From Gammaproteobacteria bacterium (GTDB lineage Bacteria; Pseudomonadota; Gammaproteobacteria; Nitrosococcales; Methylophagaceae): 42,697 bases of DNA. A program made the position numbers and the translations under genes. The stretch covers positions 52,165 to 94,861 of the forward strand of contig JARGFJ010000006.1 of assembly GCA_029210875.1 (NCBI GenBank), in the 5' to 3' direction. The notes under the pieces are model-generated. The model was not told the origin of the DNA, ran no database searches, and was given only the letters and a program-made list of their open reading frames with translations. This document shows positions 24,760 through 36,340 of this stretch, one piece after another. Each line of letters opens with the position of its first letter. Position 1 is the stretch's first letter.

Positions 24760-25074
24760 ATGTCAGAGGTAGTGATTGATTGTGGTGAAATGCTGACGAT
24801 TGCAGGCGTAGGTGATCTGTATGCACAGTTGTTAACCTACTTGGCAGAAGGTAAAACAGTCTCATTTGATTGCAGTAAAATTGAACGTATTGATACGGCT
24901 TCATTGCAAATATTGTTGGCTTATGCAAAAGAGGCACAAACTCGTTCGGCCCCATTGAATTGGTATAAGCCGAGTGATACCTTTATTGAGAATGCAGCTT
25001 TATTGGGCTTGGCGTCAACGTTAAACATACAACAAGATAATCAGTCGCTTTTTCAGTGGTCTACGAAACAGTAA
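24760..25074 (+). CDS. STAS-domain protein of the chemotaxis operon
   Basis: 104 residues forming one STAS (anti-sigma-factor-antagonist-like) domain. The hallmark helix start is IERIDTASLQILLAYA, with Asp45 and Ser48 in the usual DxxS place where partner-switch proteins are phosphorylated. STAS proteins head several F7-type che clusters in gammaproteobacteria, but their role there is unsettled. No anti-sigma kinase is nearby. It begins 27 bases after the small ORF and 58 bases before cheY. Confidence 0.85.
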   Translation: MSEVVIDCGEMLTIAGVGDLYAQLLTYLAEGKTVSFDCSKIERIDTASLQILLAYAKEAQTRSAPLNWYKPSDTFIENAALLGLASTLNIQQDNQSLFQWSTKQ

Positions 25075-25132: not shown

Positions 25133-25495
25133 ATGGCAAACATTTTAGCAGTTGATGACTCAGCTTCTATGAGACAAATGGTCGCGTTTACATTGAAGGG
25201 GGCTGGTCATGCTGTGACTGATGCAGTTGATGGTAAACAAGCGCTCGATCTGGCTGGGACACAGACCTTTGATTTAGTGTTGACGGATGTAAATATGCCG
25301 GTGATGGATGGTATTACCTTAACAAAAGAGTTGCGCGCTTTAACTGATTATAGATTTACACCTATTTTGATCTTAACAACTGAGGCTGGAATGGAAAAGA
25401 AGCAGCAAGGTAGAGCTGCGGGTGCCACCGGCTGGTTAGTAAAGCCATTTAATCCTGAGCAGTTACTTGCAACGGTACGCAAAGTGCTCGGGTAG
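25133..25495 (+). CDS. cheY: Chemotaxis response regulator CheY
   Basis: 120 residues, a single receiver domain. Asp8/Asp9, phospho-acceptor Asp52 (LTDVNMPVMDG), Thr82 and Lys104 (WLVKPF) form the full active site. It matches CheY-type proteins paired with a CheA of the same operon. It may bind FliM or, in F7/Che2-like systems, act elsewhere. The ribosome-binding site is AAGGAG at about 25115. Confidence 0.95.
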   Translation: MANILAVDDSASMRQMVAFTLKGAGHAVTDAVDGKQALDLAGTQTFDLVLTDVNMPVMDGITLTKELRALTDYRFTPILILTTEAGMEKKQQGRAAGATGWLVKPFNPEQLLATVRKVLG

Positions 25496-25567
25496 ATTAT
25501 ACTTCAATAAAAACAGTAAGTTACGTTTTTTTAGGAGTGGTAGGCATTGAGATTTTAGGGATTGGCT

Positions 25568-27688
25568 ATGAGTATTGATATTTCACAGTTTTATGATGTG
25601 TTTTTTGAAGAAAGCTTTGAAGGGCTTGCGGCCATGGAAAGCGGTCTATTGAGTCTGTCAATGGGCTCAGCGGATGCGGAACAGATCAATACTATTTTTA
25701 GAGCAGCACATTCAATCAAAGGCGGTGCCGGCACGTTTGGATTTATGACCATATCTGACTTTACGCATGTTATGGAAACCTTGCTTGATCAAATGCGTAA
25801 TGGTGAGCGTGATGCGACCACAGAATTAACTAATGTATTACTTGAGGCGGTTGATGTGCTTCGAGAAATGTTGACGGCGGCTCAACAAAAAATCGATAGC
25901 GATGAGTCACGTATCGCTGCGGTCAGATTAAAACTTGAAACCATGTTAAACAGCCAGTCAGATAATGGTTCCGAATCAACCGGGCCAGATCAAGTCCATC
26001 CACAACAAGTCTATCCAGAACAAAACAAGGTATCGGTTTGGAACATATTTTTTAAGCCTCATCCCCATTTATTACAGACGGGTAACGATCCTGTCAGAAT
26101 GTTTCGTGAATTAGACATGATGGGTTCGTTAACGGTTGTTGCGGATGATTCCCAGTTGCCCCCTTTTTTTGATTTAGAGCCAGAAGATAGTTATTTATCC
26201 TGGACATTGACACTAGAAGGCACTGTATCAAAACAGGACGTGTTTGAAGTGTTTGAATGGGTCGAGGACGATTGTGAACTTACCATCGAGCTAGTCAGTT
26301 CAAACGACTCAAGCCAACACGATTCCGATATAGAATTATCACCGATCAAACAGCCAATTCAAGATGATTTTTTGGCAAATGCGGAGCCAACTGGTGATGA
26401 TGTCGCTGTGCAAAACGATGATTCAAACCAAACATCGCCAGTCGTAAGTAAGGCCTTAGTTCAGGTCACTACGTCACAACCCGCCAGTTCAATTCGTGTT
26501 GGTACAGACAAGGTTGATTCATTGATAGATTTGGTTGGTGAATTAGTTATTACTCAGTCAATGTTAAGCCAAATTGGTGATACGTTTACCGAAGACATGC
26601 TGCCACAGCTGATTGATGGCCTTGCTCAACTTGAACGAAACACTCGTGAAATGCAAGAAGCAATTATGCAGATCAGAATGTTACCGATTAGTTTTGCTTT
26701 TAATCGTTTTCCACGCCTGGTCCATGACATGAGTGCTAAAACAGGTAAACAGGTTGAACTCAAACTTTCAGGTGAACAAACGGAATTGGACAAAACCGTG
26801 ATCGAGAAAATGGGTGATCCCTTAGTACATCTGGTTCGAAACTCGCTCGATCATGGTTTGGAAACACCAGCAGTACGACGTGCTGCTGGCAAGAATGAAA
26901 CAGGTCTGTTGTGGCTAAACGCCTTCCATCAAGGTGGCAATATTATTATTGAAGTGACCGATGATGGTGCTGGATTAAATGATGAAAAGATTTTGAACAA
27001 AGCGATAGAGCGTGGATTGGTCAGCCCAGATGAGGTGTTAAGTCCACAAAGAATTCATGAATTGATTTTTTTACCAGGGTTTTCAACTGCTGACAGTGTT
27101 ACCGATGTCTCTGGTCGTGGTGTTGGTATGGATGTTGTACGAAAAAATATCGTTAGTCTTGGCGGTAGCGTTAATGTTGTGTCAACACTCGGTCAAGGCT
27201 CCACTTTTACGATTCGCTTACCGTTAACGCTGGCAATTATGGATGGTCAAACGATTCGGGTGTCAGATCAACATTACATTTTGCCGTTGATCTCAATTGT
27301 AGAGACGCTTGAAATAAAAAATAGTGATATCAAACACGTGTCAGGAAAAGGGGAACTCTATCCGTTACGTGATGAGTATGTGCCAATTATTCGTCTTTAC
27401 GACGTGTTAGGACTTAAACCGATAGTGACTAATTTAGAGGAAGGTCTGCTGGTTGTAGTTGATGGTGCAGAAAGTAAAGTTGGCTTGTTTATTGATGACT
27501 TACTGGGGCAACAACAAGTCGTTATTAAAAGTTTAGAAACAAATTATCGCAAAGTGATGGGTGTTTCTGGGGCAACTATTCTTGGCGATGGCACGATTGC
27601 ATTGATCCTGGATGTACAGGGGCTAGTGTCACTATATAAAGATCCTTCATTAGCACATGTCATTATTGCTGATGAGCGTGCGGCCTGA
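25568..27688 (+). CDS. cheA: Chemotaxis histidine kinase CheA
   Basis: 706 residues. P1 carries His48 in AAHSIKGGAGTFGF. A P2-like region and an acidic linker span about 130-310. P3 dimerisation starts at IRVGTDKVDSLIDLVGELVI. P4 has the N box (DPLVHLVRNSLDHGLE, about 415-430), G boxes DDGAGL and GRGVGMDVV, and P5 is the CheW-like C terminus. CheA phosphorylates CheY and CheB under receptor control. The ATG at 25568 has TAGGGA upstream; a TTG two codons earlier is possible. Confidence 0.96.
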   Translation: MSIDISQFYDVFFEESFEGLAAMESGLLSLSMGSADAEQINTIFRAAHSIKGGAGTFGFMTISDFTHVMETLLDQMRNGERDATTELTNVLLEAVDVLREMLTAAQQKIDSDESRIAAVRLKLETMLNSQSDNGSESTGPDQVHPQQVYPEQNKVSVWNIFFKPHPHLLQTGNDPVRMFRELDMMGSLTVVADDSQLPPFFDLEPEDSYLSWTLTLEGTVSKQDVFEVFEWVEDDCELTIELVSSNDSSQHDSDIELSPIKQPIQDDFLANAEPTGDDVAVQNDDSNQTSPVVSKALVQVTTSQPASSIRVGTDKVDSLIDLVGELVITQSMLSQIGDTFTEDMLPQLIDGLAQLERNTREMQEAIMQIRMLPISFAFNRFPRLVHDMSAKTGKQVELKLSGEQTELDKTVIEKMGDPLVHLVRNSLDHGLETPAVRRAAGKNETGLLWLNAFHQGGNIIIEVTDDGAGLNDEKILNKAIERGLVSPDEVLSPQRIHELIFLPGFSTADSVTDVSGRGVGMDVVRKNIVSLGGSVNVVSTLGQGSTFTIRLPLTLAIMDGQTIRVSDQHYILPLISIVETLEIKNSDIKHVSGKGELYPLRDEYVPIIRLYDVLGLKPIVTNLEEGLLVVVDGAESKVGLFIDDLLGQQQVVIKSLETNYRKVMGVSGATILGDGTIALILDVQGLVSLYKDPSLAHVIIADERAA

Positions 27689-27697
27689 GGTATACAA

Positions 27698-28195
27698 ATG
27701 AGCGAATTACAACAGGCAAATGAGTTTTTAGAACCCCGTGATAGTGTTGAGAAAAGTGGTGATCACTATCTCAGCTTTATGTTGGGTGATGAAGCTTATG
27801 GTGTTGAAATTCTGCGAGTTCAGGAAATTAAAGCCTGGCAAAATGTAACCCTGATCCCTAATACGCCTGATTATGTGTGCGGTGTTTTGAATCTTCGAGG
27901 TGCGATCATTCCTGTGGTTGATCTGCGTCGCCGTCTTGACATGACACCCAAACCCTATATCTCGACAACGGTAGTTATTGTGTTAAAAGTTGAAGGAATG
28001 ACTAGCCGAATAGTCGGTATTGTTGTTGACGCTGTGTCGGATGCAATTAATGTGACTGAAGATATGATTCGTCCAACGCCAGACTTTGGTACACATCTTG
28101 ATACTCATTACATCAAAGGCTTGGTGCCTAATGATAATAACATGATGATGTTGTTAAATATTGATCACTTACTAAGTGTCGAAGCACTTGGGTAA
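27698..28195 (+). CDS. cheW: Chemotaxis coupling protein CheW
   Basis: 165 residues, a single CheW domain (about 22-160). Conserved patches include YGVEILRVQEIKAW, PDYVCGVLNLRGAIIPVVDLR and IVGIVVDAVSDAINV. CheW joins CheA to chemoreceptors in arrays. It starts 9 bases after cheA and is followed by parA, so all appear co-transcribed. Confidence 0.96.
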   Translation: MSELQQANEFLEPRDSVEKSGDHYLSFMLGDEAYGVEILRVQEIKAWQNVTLIPNTPDYVCGVLNLRGAIIPVVDLRRRLDMTPKPYISTTVVIVLKVEGMTSRIVGIVVDAVSDAINVTEDMIRPTPDFGTHLDTHYIKGLVPNDNNMMMLLNIDHLLSVEALG

Positions 28196-28216
28196 CAGGA
28201 AGCGTTGGTAATTATT

Positions 28217-28975
28217 GTGACTAGAATCATAGCTGTGATGAACCAGAAAGGTGGGGTAGGTAAGACAACGACCACGATCAATCTCGGTCATGCACTTGCC
28301 TTGGCCGGTAACAAAGTCACCTTATTGGATATGGATCCACAAGGTCAAATCGCGACTGGATATGGTTTAGACAATAATCAGTCAGGCTTAGATGACGTTC
28401 TGCTTAATGATGTGGCGATAGATGATGTCAGAGTAGAAGCGAGAGATAAGCTTTATATCATAGCGGCTGGTCGCCAATTAGCTGATTTTGAACATGTTTC
28501 GGAAGGTGGATCTGCACGAGGTCACAGATTAAGATTGGCGATAGAAGCATCATCGCTTAACGATCAGGATTTTATCTTAATTGATTGTCCGCCTTCATCT
28601 GGCCTATTAGGTATCAATGCGATGTTTGCTGCCTATGAAGTGGTGATCCCTGTATCAAGTGATTATCTGTCTTTACAAGGTTTATCTCGCATGATTCCGA
28701 TTGTAAAGCGAGCTGAATCGCTATCGGGCCACACCATCAAATTATGGCTGGTATCAACACGTATGGATATGCGACGTCGTTTGGCACATGAAGTCAGAAA
28801 CAGAATTTTGAACTACTTCCCAGGACGTGTATTTGCGACAGTAGTACGAGAAAACGTTGCTTTAGCAGAAAGTCCGAGTTTTGGTAAAACCATATTTGAA
28901 TATAAACCTACAAGTGCAGGTGCAGAAGATTATTTTTCACTTGCCCAAGACCTATTAGAGCGGAGGATCAGCTAA
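28217..28975 (+). CDS. parA: ParA-family ATPase of the chemotaxis operon
   Basis: 252 residues. It has a deviant Walker A KGGVGKTT (residues 11-18), Walker A' DMDPQGQ and Walker B LIDCPPS, all canonical ParA. It lacks the features and neighbours of FlhG/FleN and has no ParB or parS nearby. ParA-like proteins (PpfA of Rhodobacter sphaeroides, ParC of Vibrio) place chemosensory arrays. Its stop TAA shares one base with the ATG of the soluble receptor. A GTG at 28217 gives the family-like start MTRIIAV; an in-frame TTG at 28205, nearer AGGA, is the alternative. Confidence 0.9.
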
Positions 28976-30987
28976 TGGCAGAAAGTAAAACACCTATGGG
29001 CGATGACCCATTAGCGTGGTTGGCTGAGGAAGATAAGTCTGTGACTGAGAAGCAAACACCACAACCTAAACGTACTAGAGCAAGAGCTACACCAAAAGCC
29101 ACATCGGATACGGAACTGTTACAACAAAGTTTTGCTGTTCTAGCGGCTAGGGGTGAAGCGCTGACAGCACGATTTTATCAGCGTTTACTTGAAAATAATC
29201 CACAACTGTCCCCCTTATTTGATGGTGTTTCATTAGCCGGACTACAAAAAAAATTATTCGCATCCCTGGTCTTGATTGTACAAAATCTGCATAAACCTGA
29301 TGTGATAAAAGACTATTTGATGGGCCTGGGAGCAAGACATGTTCATTATGGTGCGCTAGCAGAACATTATCCGATAGTGACAGAAAATTTATTAGCCGTA
29401 TTAGCTGAATTTTCCGGGCCAGCATGGACAGCTGATGTGCAACGAGCGTGGGCAAAAACCTTAAAGAATGTAGCCAAAATCATGTTGGAAGCATACGAGC
29501 CAATCGAGGAAAATGAAATGGCAAGTCGTAATAAGACAGAAGTTCAACCAGACAATACATCACTACTTTCCAGCGATCAGATAGCTGATTTTAAAGGTCA
29601 AGTAGCCGCTATTGATAAAGTAATGGCTGTGATCAGTTTTAATATGGATGGCACTATTATCGATGTGAATGATAACTTTCTAAAATTGGTGGGTTACACC
29701 AAACAAGACGTTATCGGCAAGCACCATGGCATATTTGCACAACCGGGCTTGGTCAATAGTCCCGAATATGCTGAATTCTGGGCTAAACTCAACCGTGGTG
29801 AATTTGATTCAGGTGAATATAAGCGCATTGGCAAAGAGGGAAAGGAAGTCTGGTTACACGCATCCTACAATCCTATTTTTGATTTAAATGGCAAGCCGTT
29901 CAAAGTGGTCAAATATGCAACAGATATTACTGCTCAAAAACAACTGCAGATGACCGTTGATACACTATTTTCCTCTATTGCGACTGTGATGACTGCGATG
30001 GCAGAAGGTGACTTAACGCAACGGATAGAAGGCAATTTTGAAGGTGAATTTGGCGTATTACAACAGGCTGTCAATACGACTGTGGCTAAAATGGCTGATA
30101 CGGTCAAAGCAATTAATGACGTAGCACAAACCATCAGCATAGGCGCAAGTGAAATTTCAGAAGGTAATATAGATCTAAGCCAGCGTACTGAAGAGCAAGC
30201 TTCGTCATTAGAAGAAACAGCAGCAAGTATGGAAGAATTGACCAGTACGGTAAGACAAAATTCTGATAATGCACGACAAGCGAATCAACTGGCGGCATCA
30301 AGTCGTGAACAGGCTGAAAAAGGTGGTTCAGTCATTAAGCGTGCAATTGAGGCAATGACTGCGATTAGTTCCTCTAGTCGAAAAGTATCAGATATTATTG
30401 GTGTAATCGATGAAATTGCATTTCAAACCAATTTATTAGCGTTAAATGCAGCAGTAGAAGCTGCACGCGCAGGTGAACAAGGACGAGGTTTTGCTGTTGT
30501 TGCATCAGAAGTGCGTAATTTGGCCCAACGTTCAGCATCTGCCGCTAAAGAAATTAAAGCGTTGATCAATGATAGTGGTGATAAAGTTAAAGAAGGTTCG
30601 ATGCTAGTTGATGAGTCAGGCAGAACCTTGGAAGAAATCGTTGCCAGCTCGAAAAAAGTGGGCGATATTATTTCTGAAATTGCAGCGGCAGGAGAAGAGC
30701 AAACTCAAGGAATTGAACAAGTTAATAAGGCGGTTACTCAAATGGATGAAATGACCCAGCAAAATGCAGCTTTGGTAGAACAGGCAGCGGCTGCGAGTGA
30801 GTCATTAGATGAACAAGGTAAGCATTTAGAAAACGTAATAGCATTCTTTAATATTGGCGAACAGCCGAGCGTTGATCAACATGCCAGTAAACCTAAGCAA
30901 GAAGTCAAACCCAATCCGATTTCATCTGTTAAAAAAGTAATAAGACAATCGGCACCTGAAGCTGATGATGAATGGGATGAGTTTTAA
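28975..30987 (+). CDS. Soluble globin-PAS methyl-accepting chemotaxis protein
   Basis: 670 residues and no transmembrane helix. Order: a 45-residue tail ([10 protein letters not shown], then basic [11 protein letters not shown]), a flavohaemoglobin-type globin (about 46-175; Tyr68 B10, Gln91 E7, His122 F8, Tyr132), a PAS domain (about 205-320), a HAMP-like linker ([18 protein letters not shown]) and an MCP signalling domain with the tip [31 protein letters not shown]. The last five residues, EWDEF, match the xWxxF CheR tether. It likely senses oxygen or NO through haem. Its place in the operon and its soluble form recall Aer2/McpB of the Pseudomonas Che2 cluster, but the sensory module differs. 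Confidence 0.92.
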
Positions 30988-31015: not shown

Positions 31016-31852
31016 ATGTCTCAACCGCGTGAGTTTGTAATGTCTGATAGCAATTTTGAACGGATACGCCAGTTTGTATCGGAACATACTGGCATTGTAT
31101 TGTCAGATGCCAAGAAAGATATGGTCTATGGTCGTTTATCTAAACGAGTTAGGAAAGGACGATATAACAATTTTGATGCATTTTGTGATGCACTTGATGC
31201 TGGCGATCAAGAAGAACAGGCGTTCCTGATTAATGCGATCACAACCAATCTAACATCATTTTTTCGGGAACATCATCATTTCGAATTTTTAGCTAATACC
31301 CTGATTCCTGAGCTGATTAAACATAATAATTCAACTAAAAGAATACGCATTTGGTCAGCAGGGTGTTCAACAGGTGAAGAACCATACAGCATAGCAATGA
31401 CACTCAAAGAGTCGATAGCAGACATGTCGCAATGGGATGTCAAAATATTAGCCACAGATCTTGATGCTAATGCCATCGCCTATGCTAAAACAGGCATATA
31501 TAGGGCAGATCGTGTTGCCGAGCTTCCTCAACAACAAATCGAACGGTGGTTCAAACGAGGACGGGGCGATCACGAAAACAATGTAAAAGTATCTAAAGCG
31601 TTACAAGATTTAATCACCTTTAAACGTCTAAACTTACTACAAGATTGGCCGATGAAAGGGATATTTGATGTCATATTTTGTCGTAATGTAGTCATTTATT
31701 TTGATAAAGAAACACAACGGACTTTATTTGAGCGTTATGCAGATATTCTAAAGCCGGATGGCTATTTGTTTATTGGTCATTCCGAAAGTTTATTTAATGT
31801 CACAACCCGGTTTGATAATCTGGGTAAAACTATTTATAGAAAGAATAGTTAA
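31016..31852 (+). CDS. cheR: Chemoreceptor methyltransferase CheR
   Basis: 278 residues. An N-terminal helical domain with ITTNLTSFFRE (Arg84) precedes the SAM-binding domain (RIWSAGCSTGEEPYSIAM, 111-128) and DVIFCRNVVIYFD. CheR methylates receptor glutamates. The upstream receptor ends in EWDEF, a plausible docking tail for the CheR beta-subdomain. Its stop overlaps the cheD start by one base. A start at the second ATG (31040) is possible. Confidence 0.95.
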   Translation: MSQPREFVMSDSNFERIRQFVSEHTGIVLSDAKKDMVYGRLSKRVRKGRYNNFDAFCDALDAGDQEEQAFLINAITTNLTSFFREHHHFEFLANTLIPELIKHNNSTKRIRIWSAGCSTGEEPYSIAMTLKESIADMSQWDVKILATDLDANAIAYAKTGIYRADRVAELPQQQIERWFKRGRGDHENNVKVSKALQDLITFKRLNLLQDWPMKGIFDVIFCRNVVIYFDKETQRTLFERYADILKPDGYLFIGHSESLFNVTTRFDNLGKTIYRKNS

Positions 31853-32478
31853 TGACCAAGTACCTCAGTAAACCGGCATGTTTGGCTGGTTTTGAACATA
31901 TAAATCGCTATTGGGATCACGCCCATGCTACCTGGGTCGCAAAGCTATTGCCGGGCGAATATTATGTTACAACACAAGCAAATGAAGCCGTGGCTACAAC
32001 ATTAGGCTCCTGTGTTTCAGCATGTATTCGCGATAAGGTCACAGGTATAGGTGGCATGAATCATTTTATGCTTCCAATTAAAGCTGAATATGCGAGTGAT
32101 ACTTGGATGAATTCAGCGACACGCTATGGTAGTTATGCTATGGAGCACTTGATAAATCAAATTCTAAAAAATGGTGGCGAACGCAAAAATTTAGAAGTGA
32201 AGTTGGCTGGTGGTGGAAAAGTCATCACCACGATGTCAGATATAGGTGCTAGAAATAGTGAGTTTGTGCTTGAGTATCTGCATATAGAGAGAATAACAGT
32301 CGAAGCACAGGATTTAGGCGATATCTACCCACGGAAAATAATGTATTACCCGGCATCTGGACGATTACGAGTCAAGCGACTGCGTGCATTGCATAATGAG
32401 ACAGTATTTGAACGTGAACACGCCTATCAACGTCAATTGGATAGTCAACCGGATTCTGGCGAAATTGAACTGTTTTAG
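31852..32478 (+). CDS. cheD: Chemoreceptor glutamine deamidase CheD
   Basis: 208 residues. TTLGSCVSACIRDKVTGIGGMNHFMLP carries the catalytic Cys54 and His71, 17 residues apart as in characterised CheD. LKVKLAGG-type (here VKLAGGGKVI) and DLGDIYPRKIMYYPASGRL segments follow. CheD deamidates receptor glutamines. It has an N-terminal extension of about 30 residues before the core. CheD next to cheR and cheB is typical of F7/Che2-like clusters. Confidence 0.94.
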   Translation: MTKYLSKPACLAGFEHINRYWDHAHATWVAKLLPGEYYVTTQANEAVATTLGSCVSACIRDKVTGIGGMNHFMLPIKAEYASDTWMNSATRYGSYAMEHLINQILKNGGERKNLEVKLAGGGKVITTMSDIGARNSEFVLEYLHIERITVEAQDLGDIYPRKIMYYPASGRLRVKRLRALHNETVFEREHAYQRQLDSQPDSGEIELF

Positions 32479-32575: not shown

Positions 32576-33655
32576 ATGGCAAAAATAAACGTGCTGGTGA
32601 TTGATGATTCAGCGCTAGTTAGAAAATTATTGAGCGAGATCCTAAATTCTGATCCTGGTATTGAAGTGATCGGCACTGCAATTGATGCCTATCAAGCACG
32701 TGCAAAAATCAAGCGGCTAAAGCCAGATGTATTGACACTTGATGTTGAAATGCCGGGTATGAATGGTGTGACGTTTTTAAAAAATCTAATGCGGCTTCAC
32801 CCCTTACCTGTTGTTATGGTTTCAACGTTGACGCAAGCAGGTGCTCAGGTAACCTTAGATGCACTTGAGTTGGGCGCTGTCGACTTTGTTAGTAAACCTA
32901 AAATGGATTTGTCTCATACCATCAATGACTATGCACAGGAAATTATTCAGAAAGTAAAAACAGCGGCAACCGTTAATGTCGACAAGCTTGGTTTGGTAAA
33001 GACTGTGACCAAAACCTTGGATGTGACCTCCAGATTATCAGCTGATGTTATCTTGCCCAAGGCAACGTTAAGTAAGGCTTCCGATCTGAGTCAAACAATT
33101 ATTTCGATTGGAGCTTCAACTGGTGGTACCGAAGCTATAAAACAAGTCTTGCAGTCACTACCGGCAGACTGCCCGGCTATCGTTATTACGCAGCATATTC
33201 CAGCAGCATTTAGTCAAGCATTTGCTTTACGATTAGATCGCCATTGTGCTTTGAGTGTATGTCAAGCCGAACACGGTCAACGCATTTTGCCTGGACATGC
33301 GTACTTGGCACCGGGAGATAAACATTTAATTGTTCGATGCAGTGGCGATCACTTTTATTGTGAACTGAATGATGGCCCATTAGTGAATAGACACAAACCT
33401 TCGGTTGATGTGTTATTTCGATCGATGGCTCAAAATGTTGGTGCTAATGCTATCGGTATTCTGCTAACAGGAATGGGGGATGATGGGGCTCAAGGTATGT
33501 TGGAAATGAAACAGGCAGGTGCGTTCAATTTTGTTCAAGATGAAAAGTCGAGTGTAGTATGGGGTATGCCTGGACAAGCAGTAAAAATTGGGGCAGCAAC
33601 CCTGCAAGTTCCATTGGTGCAAGTGGCTACCATTTTGCTGGATAAGGTGACTTAA
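32576..33655 (+). CDS. cheB: Chemoreceptor methylesterase CheB
   Basis: 359 residues. The receiver domain has Asp10/Asp11 and phospho-acceptor Asp56 (LTLDVEMPGMNG). The methylesterase domain has the triad Ser181 (IGASTGGTEA), His207 (ITQHIP) and Asp303 (LTGMGDDGAQGM). CheB removes receptor methyl groups when phosphorylated by CheA. No clear ribosome-binding site is seen before the ATG. It closes the che block; fliK follows after a gap with its own promoter. Confidence 0.95.
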   Translation: MAKINVLVIDDSALVRKLLSEILNSDPGIEVIGTAIDAYQARAKIKRLKPDVLTLDVEMPGMNGVTFLKNLMRLHPLPVVMVSTLTQAGAQVTLDALELGAVDFVSKPKMDLSHTINDYAQEIIQKVKTAATVNVDKLGLVKTVTKTLDVTSRLSADVILPKATLSKASDLSQTIISIGASTGGTEAIKQVLQSLPADCPAIVITQHIPAAFSQAFALRLDRHCALSVCQAEHGQRILPGHAYLAPGDKHLIVRCSGDHFYCELNDGPLVNRHKPSVDVLFRSMAQNVGANAIGILLTGMGDDGAQGMLEMKQAGAFNFVQDEKSSVVWGMPGQAVKIGAATLQVPLVQVATILLDKVT

Positions 33656-35102: not shown

Positions 35103-35140
35103 TGTATTTCTAGCCAGATACAGCGTAAATGGGGAAGAAA

Positions 35141-36340
35141 ATGTTTAAATTAGAAAATTACTCTTTAAGAAAGCGCATGTACATGGTTGCGGCTTTAGGT
35201 ATCTTCGGTCAACTTCTGTTGGCAGCGTTATATTTTTATATGACGATGAAAGAGATGGCGGTTATTGACCAACTTAAACTCATGAGTGTTTTTGTGGTGA
35301 TTGGCAGTGGTATTTTGATGTTTATGGCTCACCTGATAGGACGATTTGGTGAAACCAGAGCCAATACCTTGGTCGGGGCTATTCAAAATATTAAAAAGGG
35401 TGATTTAACACAGAAAATTGGCATCGCAGGTAAAAGTGATTTCAGTTGGATGGCATTTGAGTTAGACAGTGCACGAAAAAATGTCTCTAATTTAGTACAT
35501 ACACTTATCGGTGGTGTAGCTCAAATGGAAGCTGCAACAAAAAACATGGCGACAATTAGCAAGGAAACGGTCGATGGTGTTTTAACGCAACAATCAGAAA
35601 CCAGCCAGGTTGCAACAGCAATGAACGAAATGACTGCATCTGTGCAAGAGGTAGCCAGAACCGCAACCAATACAGCTGAAGCTGCCCGTGATGCAGACAA
35701 TGAAGCACAAGCAGGTAAACGTGTTGTAACCGAAGTGATGGATGCGATTGATGCTTTGTCCAGTGAAGTCGAAAAAGCCGCTGAAACACTGAATAATCTT
35801 GAATCTGATATTGGTAATATCGGTGCTATCGTCGATGTTATTCGCGGGATTACAGAGCAAACTAATCTATTGGCATTAAATGCAGCGATAGAAGCAGCGC
35901 GAGCAGGTGAGCATGGCCGTGGTTTTGCTGTTGTTGCCGATGAAGTGCGTACATTGGCAGCAAGAACGCAGTCATCAACCCATGAAATTGAAGAAATGAT
36001 CGGTCGCTTGCAAAATGGTGCTCATGCCGCTGTAAAAGTCATGAATCAAGGTCGTGAAAGCGCTAAAACAAGTGTTGAAAAAGCATCAAGTGCAGGTGTC
36101 GCTTTAGATACCATTACAGCAATGATTTCTAAAATGGATGAAATGAGCGCGGCTATATCAAGTGCTGCCAATGAGCAATCTGCCGTTGCTGAAGATATTA
36201 ACCGAGGCATTGTTAATATTAGCCAAATTGCAGAACATACTGCTGAAGGTGCGAGAGAAACATCAAATGCGGTTGATACGATGTCGTCACTGTCAGCACA
36301 ACTTCAAGAAGCTGCATCTAAATTTAAAGTTTCAAACTAA
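35141..36340 (+). CDS. Membrane chemoreceptor without a ligand-binding domain
   Basis: 399 residues. Two transmembrane helices (about 13-36 and 47-66) are joined by a loop of only about 10 residues, leaving no periplasmic sensor. A HAMP-like segment ([13 protein letters not shown]) and a full MCP domain with tip [31 protein letters not shown] follow. The tip and adaptation region differ from the globin receptor, so it may serve another array class. There is no xWxxF tail. The ATG at 35141 has GGGGAAG upstream, which an earlier ATG at 35129 lacks. It is probably co-transcribed with fliK. Confidence 0.9.

Follow-up and report, generated by a model that had tools for sequence, protein, structure and literature searches.

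The window analysed here is a 42,697-nucleotide stretch of contig JARGFJ010000006.1 (assembly GCA_029210875.1, positions 52,165 to 94,861 of the forward strand) from a gammaproteobacterium of the Methylophagaceae, in which a flagellar region precedes a complete chemosensory operon (STAS, cheY, cheA, cheW, parA, soluble receptor, cheR, cheD, cheB). Comparison of this parA with its relatives suggests, with a probability of about 0.7, that the ParAs of its clade recognise their cargo by a short, portable N-terminal tag on the protein encoded directly downstream, which in the window is a soluble chemoreceptor of the methyl-accepting chemotaxis protein (MCP) type. An earlier reading of the same DNA, referred to below as the original prediction, had correctly described the coordinates, the position of ParA between cheW and a membrane-free MCP, the one-base overlap of the stop and start codons and the 45-residue tail of the receptor. 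The features central to the argument are the following.

28217 to 28975, + strand: parA, a predicted Soj-type deviant Walker ATPase (Pfam; 8ray and Soj 1wcv/2bek as the nearest solved sequences; clade tree)
28975 to 30987, + strand: soluble chemoreceptor with a tail, a globin taken to be of the F type, PAS, HAMP, MCP signalling domain and a C-terminal DDEWDEF (Pfam, PDB sequence matches, hydropathy)
28996 to 29022, + strand: proposed ParA-docking tag MGDDPLAWL, receptor residues 8-16 (kept beside ParA in 56 of the 62 loci with a recognisable partner; strict motif absent from the controls)
29065 to 29097, + strand: basic stretch, receptor residues 31-41, varying among the relatives (sequence; not conserved)

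The comparison covered 68 loci carrying a parA of the clade, of which 25 belong to the family of the window (23 from the ParA search and two found via the receptor), 41 are others from its class and 2 lie outside the class; a third locus outside the class was added later and is not among the 68. The gene after parA encodes an MCP in 41 loci, a STAS-domain protein in 19, a globin-STAS fusion in 2 (L170 and L171, labelled MCP by the script and reassigned by hand, with a domain scan of L170 only) and neither in the remaining 6. An N-terminal [MLI]-G-x-D-P-L-[AS]-W-[LMI] or a variant of it was found in 35 of the 41 MCPs and in all of the STAS proteins (19/19) and fusions (2/2), which amounts to 56 of 62 partners. 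Strict DPL[AS]W is present in 49 of the 56 tags, the seven variants being DPMAW, DPLGW (twice), DPLAA, DPFDW, NPLAW and DPLDD. The proline is retained in all 56 tags, the aspartate in 55, the leucine and the tryptophan in 54 each and the glycine two positions before the aspartate in 52; retention of the core is partly built into the search pattern and that of the glycine is not.

Other proteins encoded in the same loci served as controls, those with cut N-termini being left out of the counts. The strict motif, found in 49 of the 62 ParA neighbours (fusions counted), is absent from the 21 MCPs and the 20 STAS proteins encoded elsewhere in the loci, and likewise from the CheW (59), CheA (35), CheR (34), CheD (33), CheB (32) and CheY (35) proteins. 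Of the 24 families of the class in which the clade ParA occurs, 22 show the DPLAWL part together with it (counted by eye), and the three genomes outside the class with a clade ParA all carry a tagged STAS protein. In three genomes of one family (L162, L163 and L176), ParA and a tagged STAS protein occur with no cheA, cheW, MCP or cheR recognised in the surrounding stretch, an arrangement that suggests a two-gene module. The tag thus goes with ParA rather than with any one partner protein. The original prediction had treated the tail as a feature of the receptor, which does not hold, since the same tag is found on a STAS protein in many operons where the receptor is untagged; and of its proposed check, that DPLAWL plus a basic tail should co-occur with ParA, the DPLAWL half proved to be conserved but the basic half did not.

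A search that starts from the motif leads to the same genes. The pattern G-x-D-P-[L/F]-[A/S]-W-[L/I/M] was scanned as DNA in 370 genomes of the class, the matches being counted by eye, and gave 32 matches as against 1 for a reversed control pattern. Of these, the 43 genomes with a clade ParA account for 28 and the remaining 327 genomes for 4. Twenty-seven of the 28 are within about 350 bases downstream of a clade ParA, and the last one is a tagged STAS gene that stands at the end of a contig, the ParA of that genome being at the end of a different one. None of the four stray matches is an N-terminal tag: two have no open reading frame (ORF) in frame, one is in the middle of a protein and one falls in a 75-codon ORF. 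The window itself escapes the pattern owing to a TTG leucine codon. A looser DPLxW pattern, run in 51 genomes, gave counts near background and was replaced by the stricter one. When the stricter pattern was run on 250 genomes from the class of G480 (presumed Alphaproteobacteria; Rhodobacter sphaeroides is possibly absent from the sample), it gave 8 matches against 7 for the control, again counted by eye; none of the 8 is an N-terminal tag beside ParA, and no ParA-like protein was seen in the 3-kb stretches around them.

The tag has been exchanged between the receptor and the STAS protein. In all 17 MCP-tagged loci of the class for which upstream sequence is available (counted by eye, as are the STAS-tagged loci below), an untagged STAS gene precedes cheY, as in the window, whose STAS protein (24760-25074) has homologues that bear the tag in operons with an untagged receptor. 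In the STAS-tagged loci of the class, the tagged STAS gene follows parA and the receptor, where seen in the operon, is untagged; a second STAS gene was found in 0 of 16 such loci, only some of the fetched stretches extending far enough upstream. In two genomes a globin-STAS fusion bears the tag and the receptor encoded after it has none; the ParA tree requires three changes of partner type. In five loci (L143 7348-7944; also L146, L151, L174 and L178) the gene directly after the tagged STAS gene is a similar one of about 190 codons, and in four of these loci it lies before cheR. No Pfam match above the cut-off was obtained for the L143 copy; the product could be a phosphatase or an adaptor of the arrays.

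The window ParA matches Pfam AAA_31 / CbiA, and its KGGVGKT, D-x-DPQ and switch DCPP/DCPPS motifs are intact, as judged from the sequence and alignments. Among PDB sequences it matches 8ray with an E-value of 3.8e-45, and the model of a relative (L029) has the Soj fold, with a template modelling (TM) score of 0.91 of the target against 2bek. The window ParA is accordingly placed with the Soj type by resemblance, and would be expected from its family to bind DNA non-specifically. The clade was separated from seven outgroup ParAs in a tree of 67 members (a quick search with long branches and many open forks, leaving out L028 with its many N) at a Shimodaira-Hasegawa-like approximate likelihood ratio (SH-aLRT) support of 94. 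With a single-sequence query, 43 of the 370 genomes of the class match at E <= 1e-52, spread over 32 genera and 24 families. The clade profile, run in 397 genomes of the phylum, scores 332-384 bits in four genomes, two from the class of the window and two from the class of G498, and <=239 bits elsewhere; outside the class, a clade ParA was found in 3 of the 78 genomes of one smaller class. The ParA therefore represents a distinct Soj-type clade, mostly tied to chemosensory operons. In L184 (G007), a ParA of the clade with NQKCGVGKT is encoded on its own between fliJ and fliK, no che genes being recognised beside it.

The window parA begins with GTG, an in-frame TTG being also present at 28205, and its TAA (28973-28975) has one A in common with the ATG of the MCP gene (28975). 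Such a one-base overlap is usual in the family of the window only; gaps of 100-221 bases are common elsewhere. The overlap was considered as a defining feature of the pair and rejected, since the distances between parA and the partner gene reach 221 bases.

Natural losses of the tag were also observed. The six untagged receptors all come from the genus of the window (G010, G012, G015, G017, G026 and G027), and the signature lysine of ParA is replaced in four of these six loci (by N, H, Q and Q), as against none of the 52 readable ParAs with a tagged partner (Fisher p 3.5e-5, descent ignored; the count drops four loci whose Walker motif was unread by the pattern, two of which show the lysine by eye). 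In G011 an untagged receptor is kept and the stretch contains no ParA. In G009 (L269 1100-5930) the operon is interrupted immediately ahead of the receptor: unrelated sequence takes the place of the region from STAS to parA of the relatives, and the receptor gene is truncated within the tail, so that the tag is gone. Some lineages have thus lost the tag, and in part of these ParA has decayed as well. Four relatives (L270, L272, L182 and L271) show a reduced operon with a short cheA and no cheY, cheR, cheD or cheB recognised beside it, their ParA carrying NQQAQVGKT or NQHTQVGKT or being absent from the stretch.

The manner in which the tag might contact ParA was approached through ParB. In the published description of Myxococcus ParB, a pocket at the edge of the ParA dimer receives the hydrophobic residues L11, L15, L18 and I19, R13 is involved in stimulating hydrolysis, and ParB binds only ParA dimers (PMC12462528). 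ParB N-termini were collected from a scan with generic ParA peptides, which gave 80 loci, all 34-43% identical, that were taken as other ParAs and used for this purpose only; 15 of 89 ParB sequences without a recognisable motif were dropped, followed by 7 of the remaining 74 in which the motif lies too near the start. With glycine aligned on glycine, the tags and the ParBs agree in a pair of lysines before it, an alanine five positions after and a hydrophobic residue seven positions after, that is K-K-x-x-[LM]-G-x4-A-x-[LMI]. This register scores best by far, with a column-shuffle p of 0.0064 when the register is fixed and 0.12 over all registers. None of the 56 tags has K or R at the position of ParB R13. 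Because the central Arg/Lys is missing throughout, docking is better supported than strong stimulation of the ATPase, and the ParB-like activator proposed by the original prediction is doubtful; the part of that proposal which stands is that the N-terminus of the receptor is the likely ParA contact.

Some of the observations weigh against the recognition of cargo by such a tag. A relaxed form of the motif occurs in 2 of the 32 CheB N-termini, though in none of the other named controls. Of the six loci without a recognised partner, G128 (parA directly before cheR), G243 and G345 have no tagged neighbour, G007 has fliK next to parA and G137 has only a short tagged ORF. In the class of G480, a long ORF (L282) has GSDPLSWL close to its N-terminus, and no ParA was seen within about 1.5 kb of it. 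Two of the genomes with an untagged receptor (G015 and G026) have nevertheless kept the ParA lysine, and the events on the tree are few (three losses of the tag and two of the lysine), so the association is not significant in an independent-pairs test. The resemblance to ParB is not significant once all registers are allowed, and 6 of the 19 STAS tags have no K or R in up to 14 preceding residues, contrary to a rule according to which the N-termini of ParA partners are positively charged (PMC7993993). Further, an AlphaFold model of a read-through ParA-STAS chain (L029) shows no docking, the mean predicted local distance difference test score (pLDDT) of the tag block, ten residues holding most of the tag, being 45 compared with 59 for the STAS protein alone; this is a weak test, a monomer having been modelled with two alignment rows over the tag.

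The basic half of the tail, which the original prediction took together with the acidic half as the ParB-like element, behaves differently from the tag. Over the 45 residues after the tag, the median net charge is +2 in the receptor-type partners (37, fusions included) and -9 in the STAS-type partners (19), and 23 of the 37 MCP-labelled tails are net positive there. The stretch is acidic in two of the three loci of genus g3, which belongs to the family of the window (L021 and L022), and in 18 of the 19 STAS-type partners, and it is retained in 6/6 receptors without DPLAWL. The claim of a conserved basic element therefore fails, and the basic tail as the ParB-like element was rejected, being not conserved among tagged partners and surviving where the tag is lost. 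From these sequences the basic stretch appears to be mostly a feature of receptors that lies outside the conserved element. The same stretch forms the basis of an alternative in which the basic half binds the nucleoid directly and ParA is secondary. FrzCD of Myxococcus xanthus is described as binding DNA through a positive N-terminal tail (PMC5716589), and both the net positive receptor tails and the persistence of the basic stretch in the six untagged receptors would agree with such a role. It is an improbable account of the whole system, as the stretch is acidic, with the tag kept, in the g3 loci and STAS partners mentioned above, and the 45-residue window tail is neutral overall (8 K/R and 8 D/E), only its second half being basic. 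The basic stretch may well help in receptors, possibly by keeping them on DNA in a FrzCD-like way, or may have taken over in the untagged lineages.

In a mechanism based on the portable tag, ATP-bound ParA dimers would sit on the nucleoid, as is usual for the family, and the many tags displayed by an array would form short helices that dock on the ParA dimer, much as the ParB N-terminus does. By analogy with PpfA and TlpT, the array would then be held or moved over the nucleoid and so be inherited by the daughter cells, the cargo in the window being the soluble globin-PAS receptor. Positioning of the arrays on the nucleoid is an expectation drawn from these relatives. According to a published description, PpfA is not dynamic and the process is a passive one (PMC10924463); docking without ParB-style stimulation would fit such behaviour. 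In a more specific form, which is offered tentatively and at less than even chances, the tag would be a portable nine-residue address resembling the ParB helix minus its catalytic arginine, by which a receptor, a STAS antagonist or a globin-STAS fusion is delivered to a single dedicated ParA. Instead of being a motor driven by ParB, ParA would tether its cargo slowly to the nucleoid, and the direct cargo of some lineages would be an anti-sigma-antagonist-like switch in place of the receptor.

The tag could alternatively be used by ParA to bring the array to the cell pole, as by ParC with HubP, instead of over the nucleoid. Arrays of the ParC type are reported to be polar in Vibrio and Halothiobacillus neapolitanus (PMC10241942), and the F7 (Che1) array of Shewanella oneidensis to occur at the cell poles as well as at mid-cell (PMC9855816). 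Polar placement is nonetheless as improbable as direct binding of the receptor to the nucleoid, since the ParA is of the Soj type, which binds DNA non-specifically, and what looks to be a ParC-ParP pair of the F6 kind is present in the genome already. This F6-like cluster was read as FlhF, FlhG, FliA, CheY, CheZ, CheA, CheB, Mot proteins, ParC, a ParP-like protein and CheW; BLAST matched only CheY, CheA, CheB, CheW and the two ParA-type proteins, and the remaining names are presumed from position. No tag is present within the 70 N-terminal residues of the F6 ParC partner (ParP-like, L274), and the chromosomal ParA of the same genome (L275) is paired with a ParB starting MAIKKRGLGRGLDALLSD. As read from these genes, the genome holds three ParA systems, with a different partner N-terminus in each.

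It is less probable still that the tag contacts another component of the array, such as CheA or STAS, and that its place beside ParA only reflects the order of the operon. In nearly all loci the tagged protein does belong to the same operon, and the AlphaFold model did not dock the tag on ParA; against this, L162, L163 and L176 keep the tag where ParA is the only constant neighbour, and four of the six ParAs with an untagged receptor have lost the signature lysine. The least likely of the alternatives, that ParA is partnered by another Che protein such as CheW (suggested by the in silico docking of the CheW N-terminus as the partner of H. neapolitanus ParC, PMC10241942) or ParP (Vibrio) and the tag is otherwise employed, has little to commend it, as the motif is present in 0 of 59 CheW N-termini, on which ground CheW was judged an unlikely partner of this clade, the tag tracks ParA and moves between unrelated proteins, and the own ParC-ParP pair of the genome is separate and untagged.

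Positioning of chemosensory arrays by ParA is a known kind of process; the tag, the exchange of partner and the missing arginine were not met in the literature searched. The tag motif itself was not found there, and could be in print in subscription papers, e.g. Roberts 2012. The nearest parallel is the PpfA-TlpT pair of the R. sphaeroides CheOp3, in which a ParA beside a soluble receptor is described in a che operon without parB (PMC3964821) and a partner contact is proposed at the receptor N-terminus (PMC3964821, PMC10924463), a likeness by description. PpfA homologues without ParB are reported from the che operons of 77 of 206 species (PMC2829493), whereas the bit score of the present clade is reached in only 4 of the 397 sampled genomes of the phylum. 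The partner here is, moreover, often a STAS protein. The parallel with PpfA and TlpT drawn by the original prediction is right in its logic (PMC3964821), but the tag was not found beside a ParA in the 250 genomes of the class of G480. The ParC-ParP system (F6, Vibrio and relatives) likewise employs an ATPase of the ParA family for positioning chemosensory arrays; its partner is the CheW-like ParP, whereas the window parA is followed by an MCP gene and the ParP-like pair lies elsewhere in the genome. With ParABS (Soj-Spo0J), the window pair shares the Soj fold and sequence and the place of the partner motif at the extreme N-terminus, perhaps also a similar spacing K-K..[LM]-G....A.[LMI]; it differs in that parA adjoins cheW and an MCP gene, with no ParB adjoining and no parS known, and in that the tag has DPL and W and lacks the central Arg/Lys. 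FrzCD is similarly a soluble receptor with a charged N-terminal tail and a nucleoid scaffold, but FrzCD itself binds DNA and the conserved part of the window tail is not the basic one (PMC5716589).

ParA partners have been called extremely diverse and often not identified (PMC10241942), and the motif reported here, which can be read from the sequence, names the likely ParA partner in some two dozen families. The tag also gives minimal peptides for biochemistry and shows evolution shifting cargo identity between proteins, and the missing central arginine makes it possible to test directly if positioning by ParA depends on activation of the ParB kind. The function of F7 stage 1 arrays is described as unclear (PMC7184735); the tag provides a handle on them, predicting which component is held and, by extension, where the array would be located. 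If the STAS protein is indeed the cargo in some lineages, the output of ancestral F7 arrays would be tied to the nucleoid.

The remaining features of the operon and of the receptor are as follows.

24760 to 25074, + strand: STAS-domain protein, untagged, first gene of the operon (Pfam STAS_2, 52.8 bits; operon comparison)
25133 to 25495, + strand: cheY (Pfam Response_reg)
25562 to 27688, + strand: cheA (Pfam Hpt, H-kinase_dim, HATPase_c, CheW)
27698 to 28195, + strand: cheW, N-terminus untagged (Pfam CheW; motif in 0/59 CheW homologues of the compared loci)
29107 to 29496, + strand: globin domain, receptor residues about 45-174 (Pfam PF00042 at 66-169; matches to 3wfw and the bacterial haemoglobin 1vhb)
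30964 to 30984, + strand: C-terminal DDEWDEF, a WxxF ending (count of WxxF ends among MCPs)
31016 to 31852, + strand: cheR (Pfam)
31852 to 32478, + strand: cheD (Pfam, NCBIfam CheD)
32576 to 33655, + strand: cheB (Pfam, NCBIfam CheB)

The gene order corresponds to that of the F7 stage 1 cluster (STAS, cheY, cheA, cheW, cytoplasmic receptor, cheR, cheD, cheB; Ortega et al. 2020, PMC7184735), from which it differs in that parA occupies the slot of the second cheW-like gene and the globin of the window receptor precedes PAS. The word ParA is absent from the main text of that paper. The compact ParA-cargo pair within an F7-type operon that had been proposed for the window is supported by this layout. 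The absence of parB and flhF nearby was also borne out, neither ParB nor FlhF being found among the window proteins scanned (a subset of the window ORFs).

The receptor consists of globin, PAS, HAMP and MCPsignal domains (Pfam), the first two of which had been missed by the original prediction, as had the STAS gene at the head of the operon, and has no hydrophobic stretch of the membrane type, the highest 19-residue Kyte-Doolittle mean (1.52) lying within the globin. The globin is nearest in sequence to a Hemoglobin-like flavoprotein fused to Roadblock/LC7 (3wfw) and to 1vhb, presumably Vitreoscilla haemoglobin, and is taken from these matches to be of the F type (flavohaemoglobin-like) and not a protoglobin, which receptors of the HemAT type usually carry. 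Comparable globins stand at the start of other tagged receptors, and one globin is fused to STAS (L170). The signalling domain is best matched by Aer2 and Tsr-type entries. The terminal DDEWDEF is possibly a CheR docking sequence; WxxF ends were found in 18 of 23 complete MCP-labelled proteins adjoining ParA and in 13 of 19 MCPs elsewhere. Downstream of the operon, after fliK, the window carries a membrane-type MCP gene (35129-36340) in a position resembling the one that the mcpA-like gene takes in F7 clusters of stage 1.

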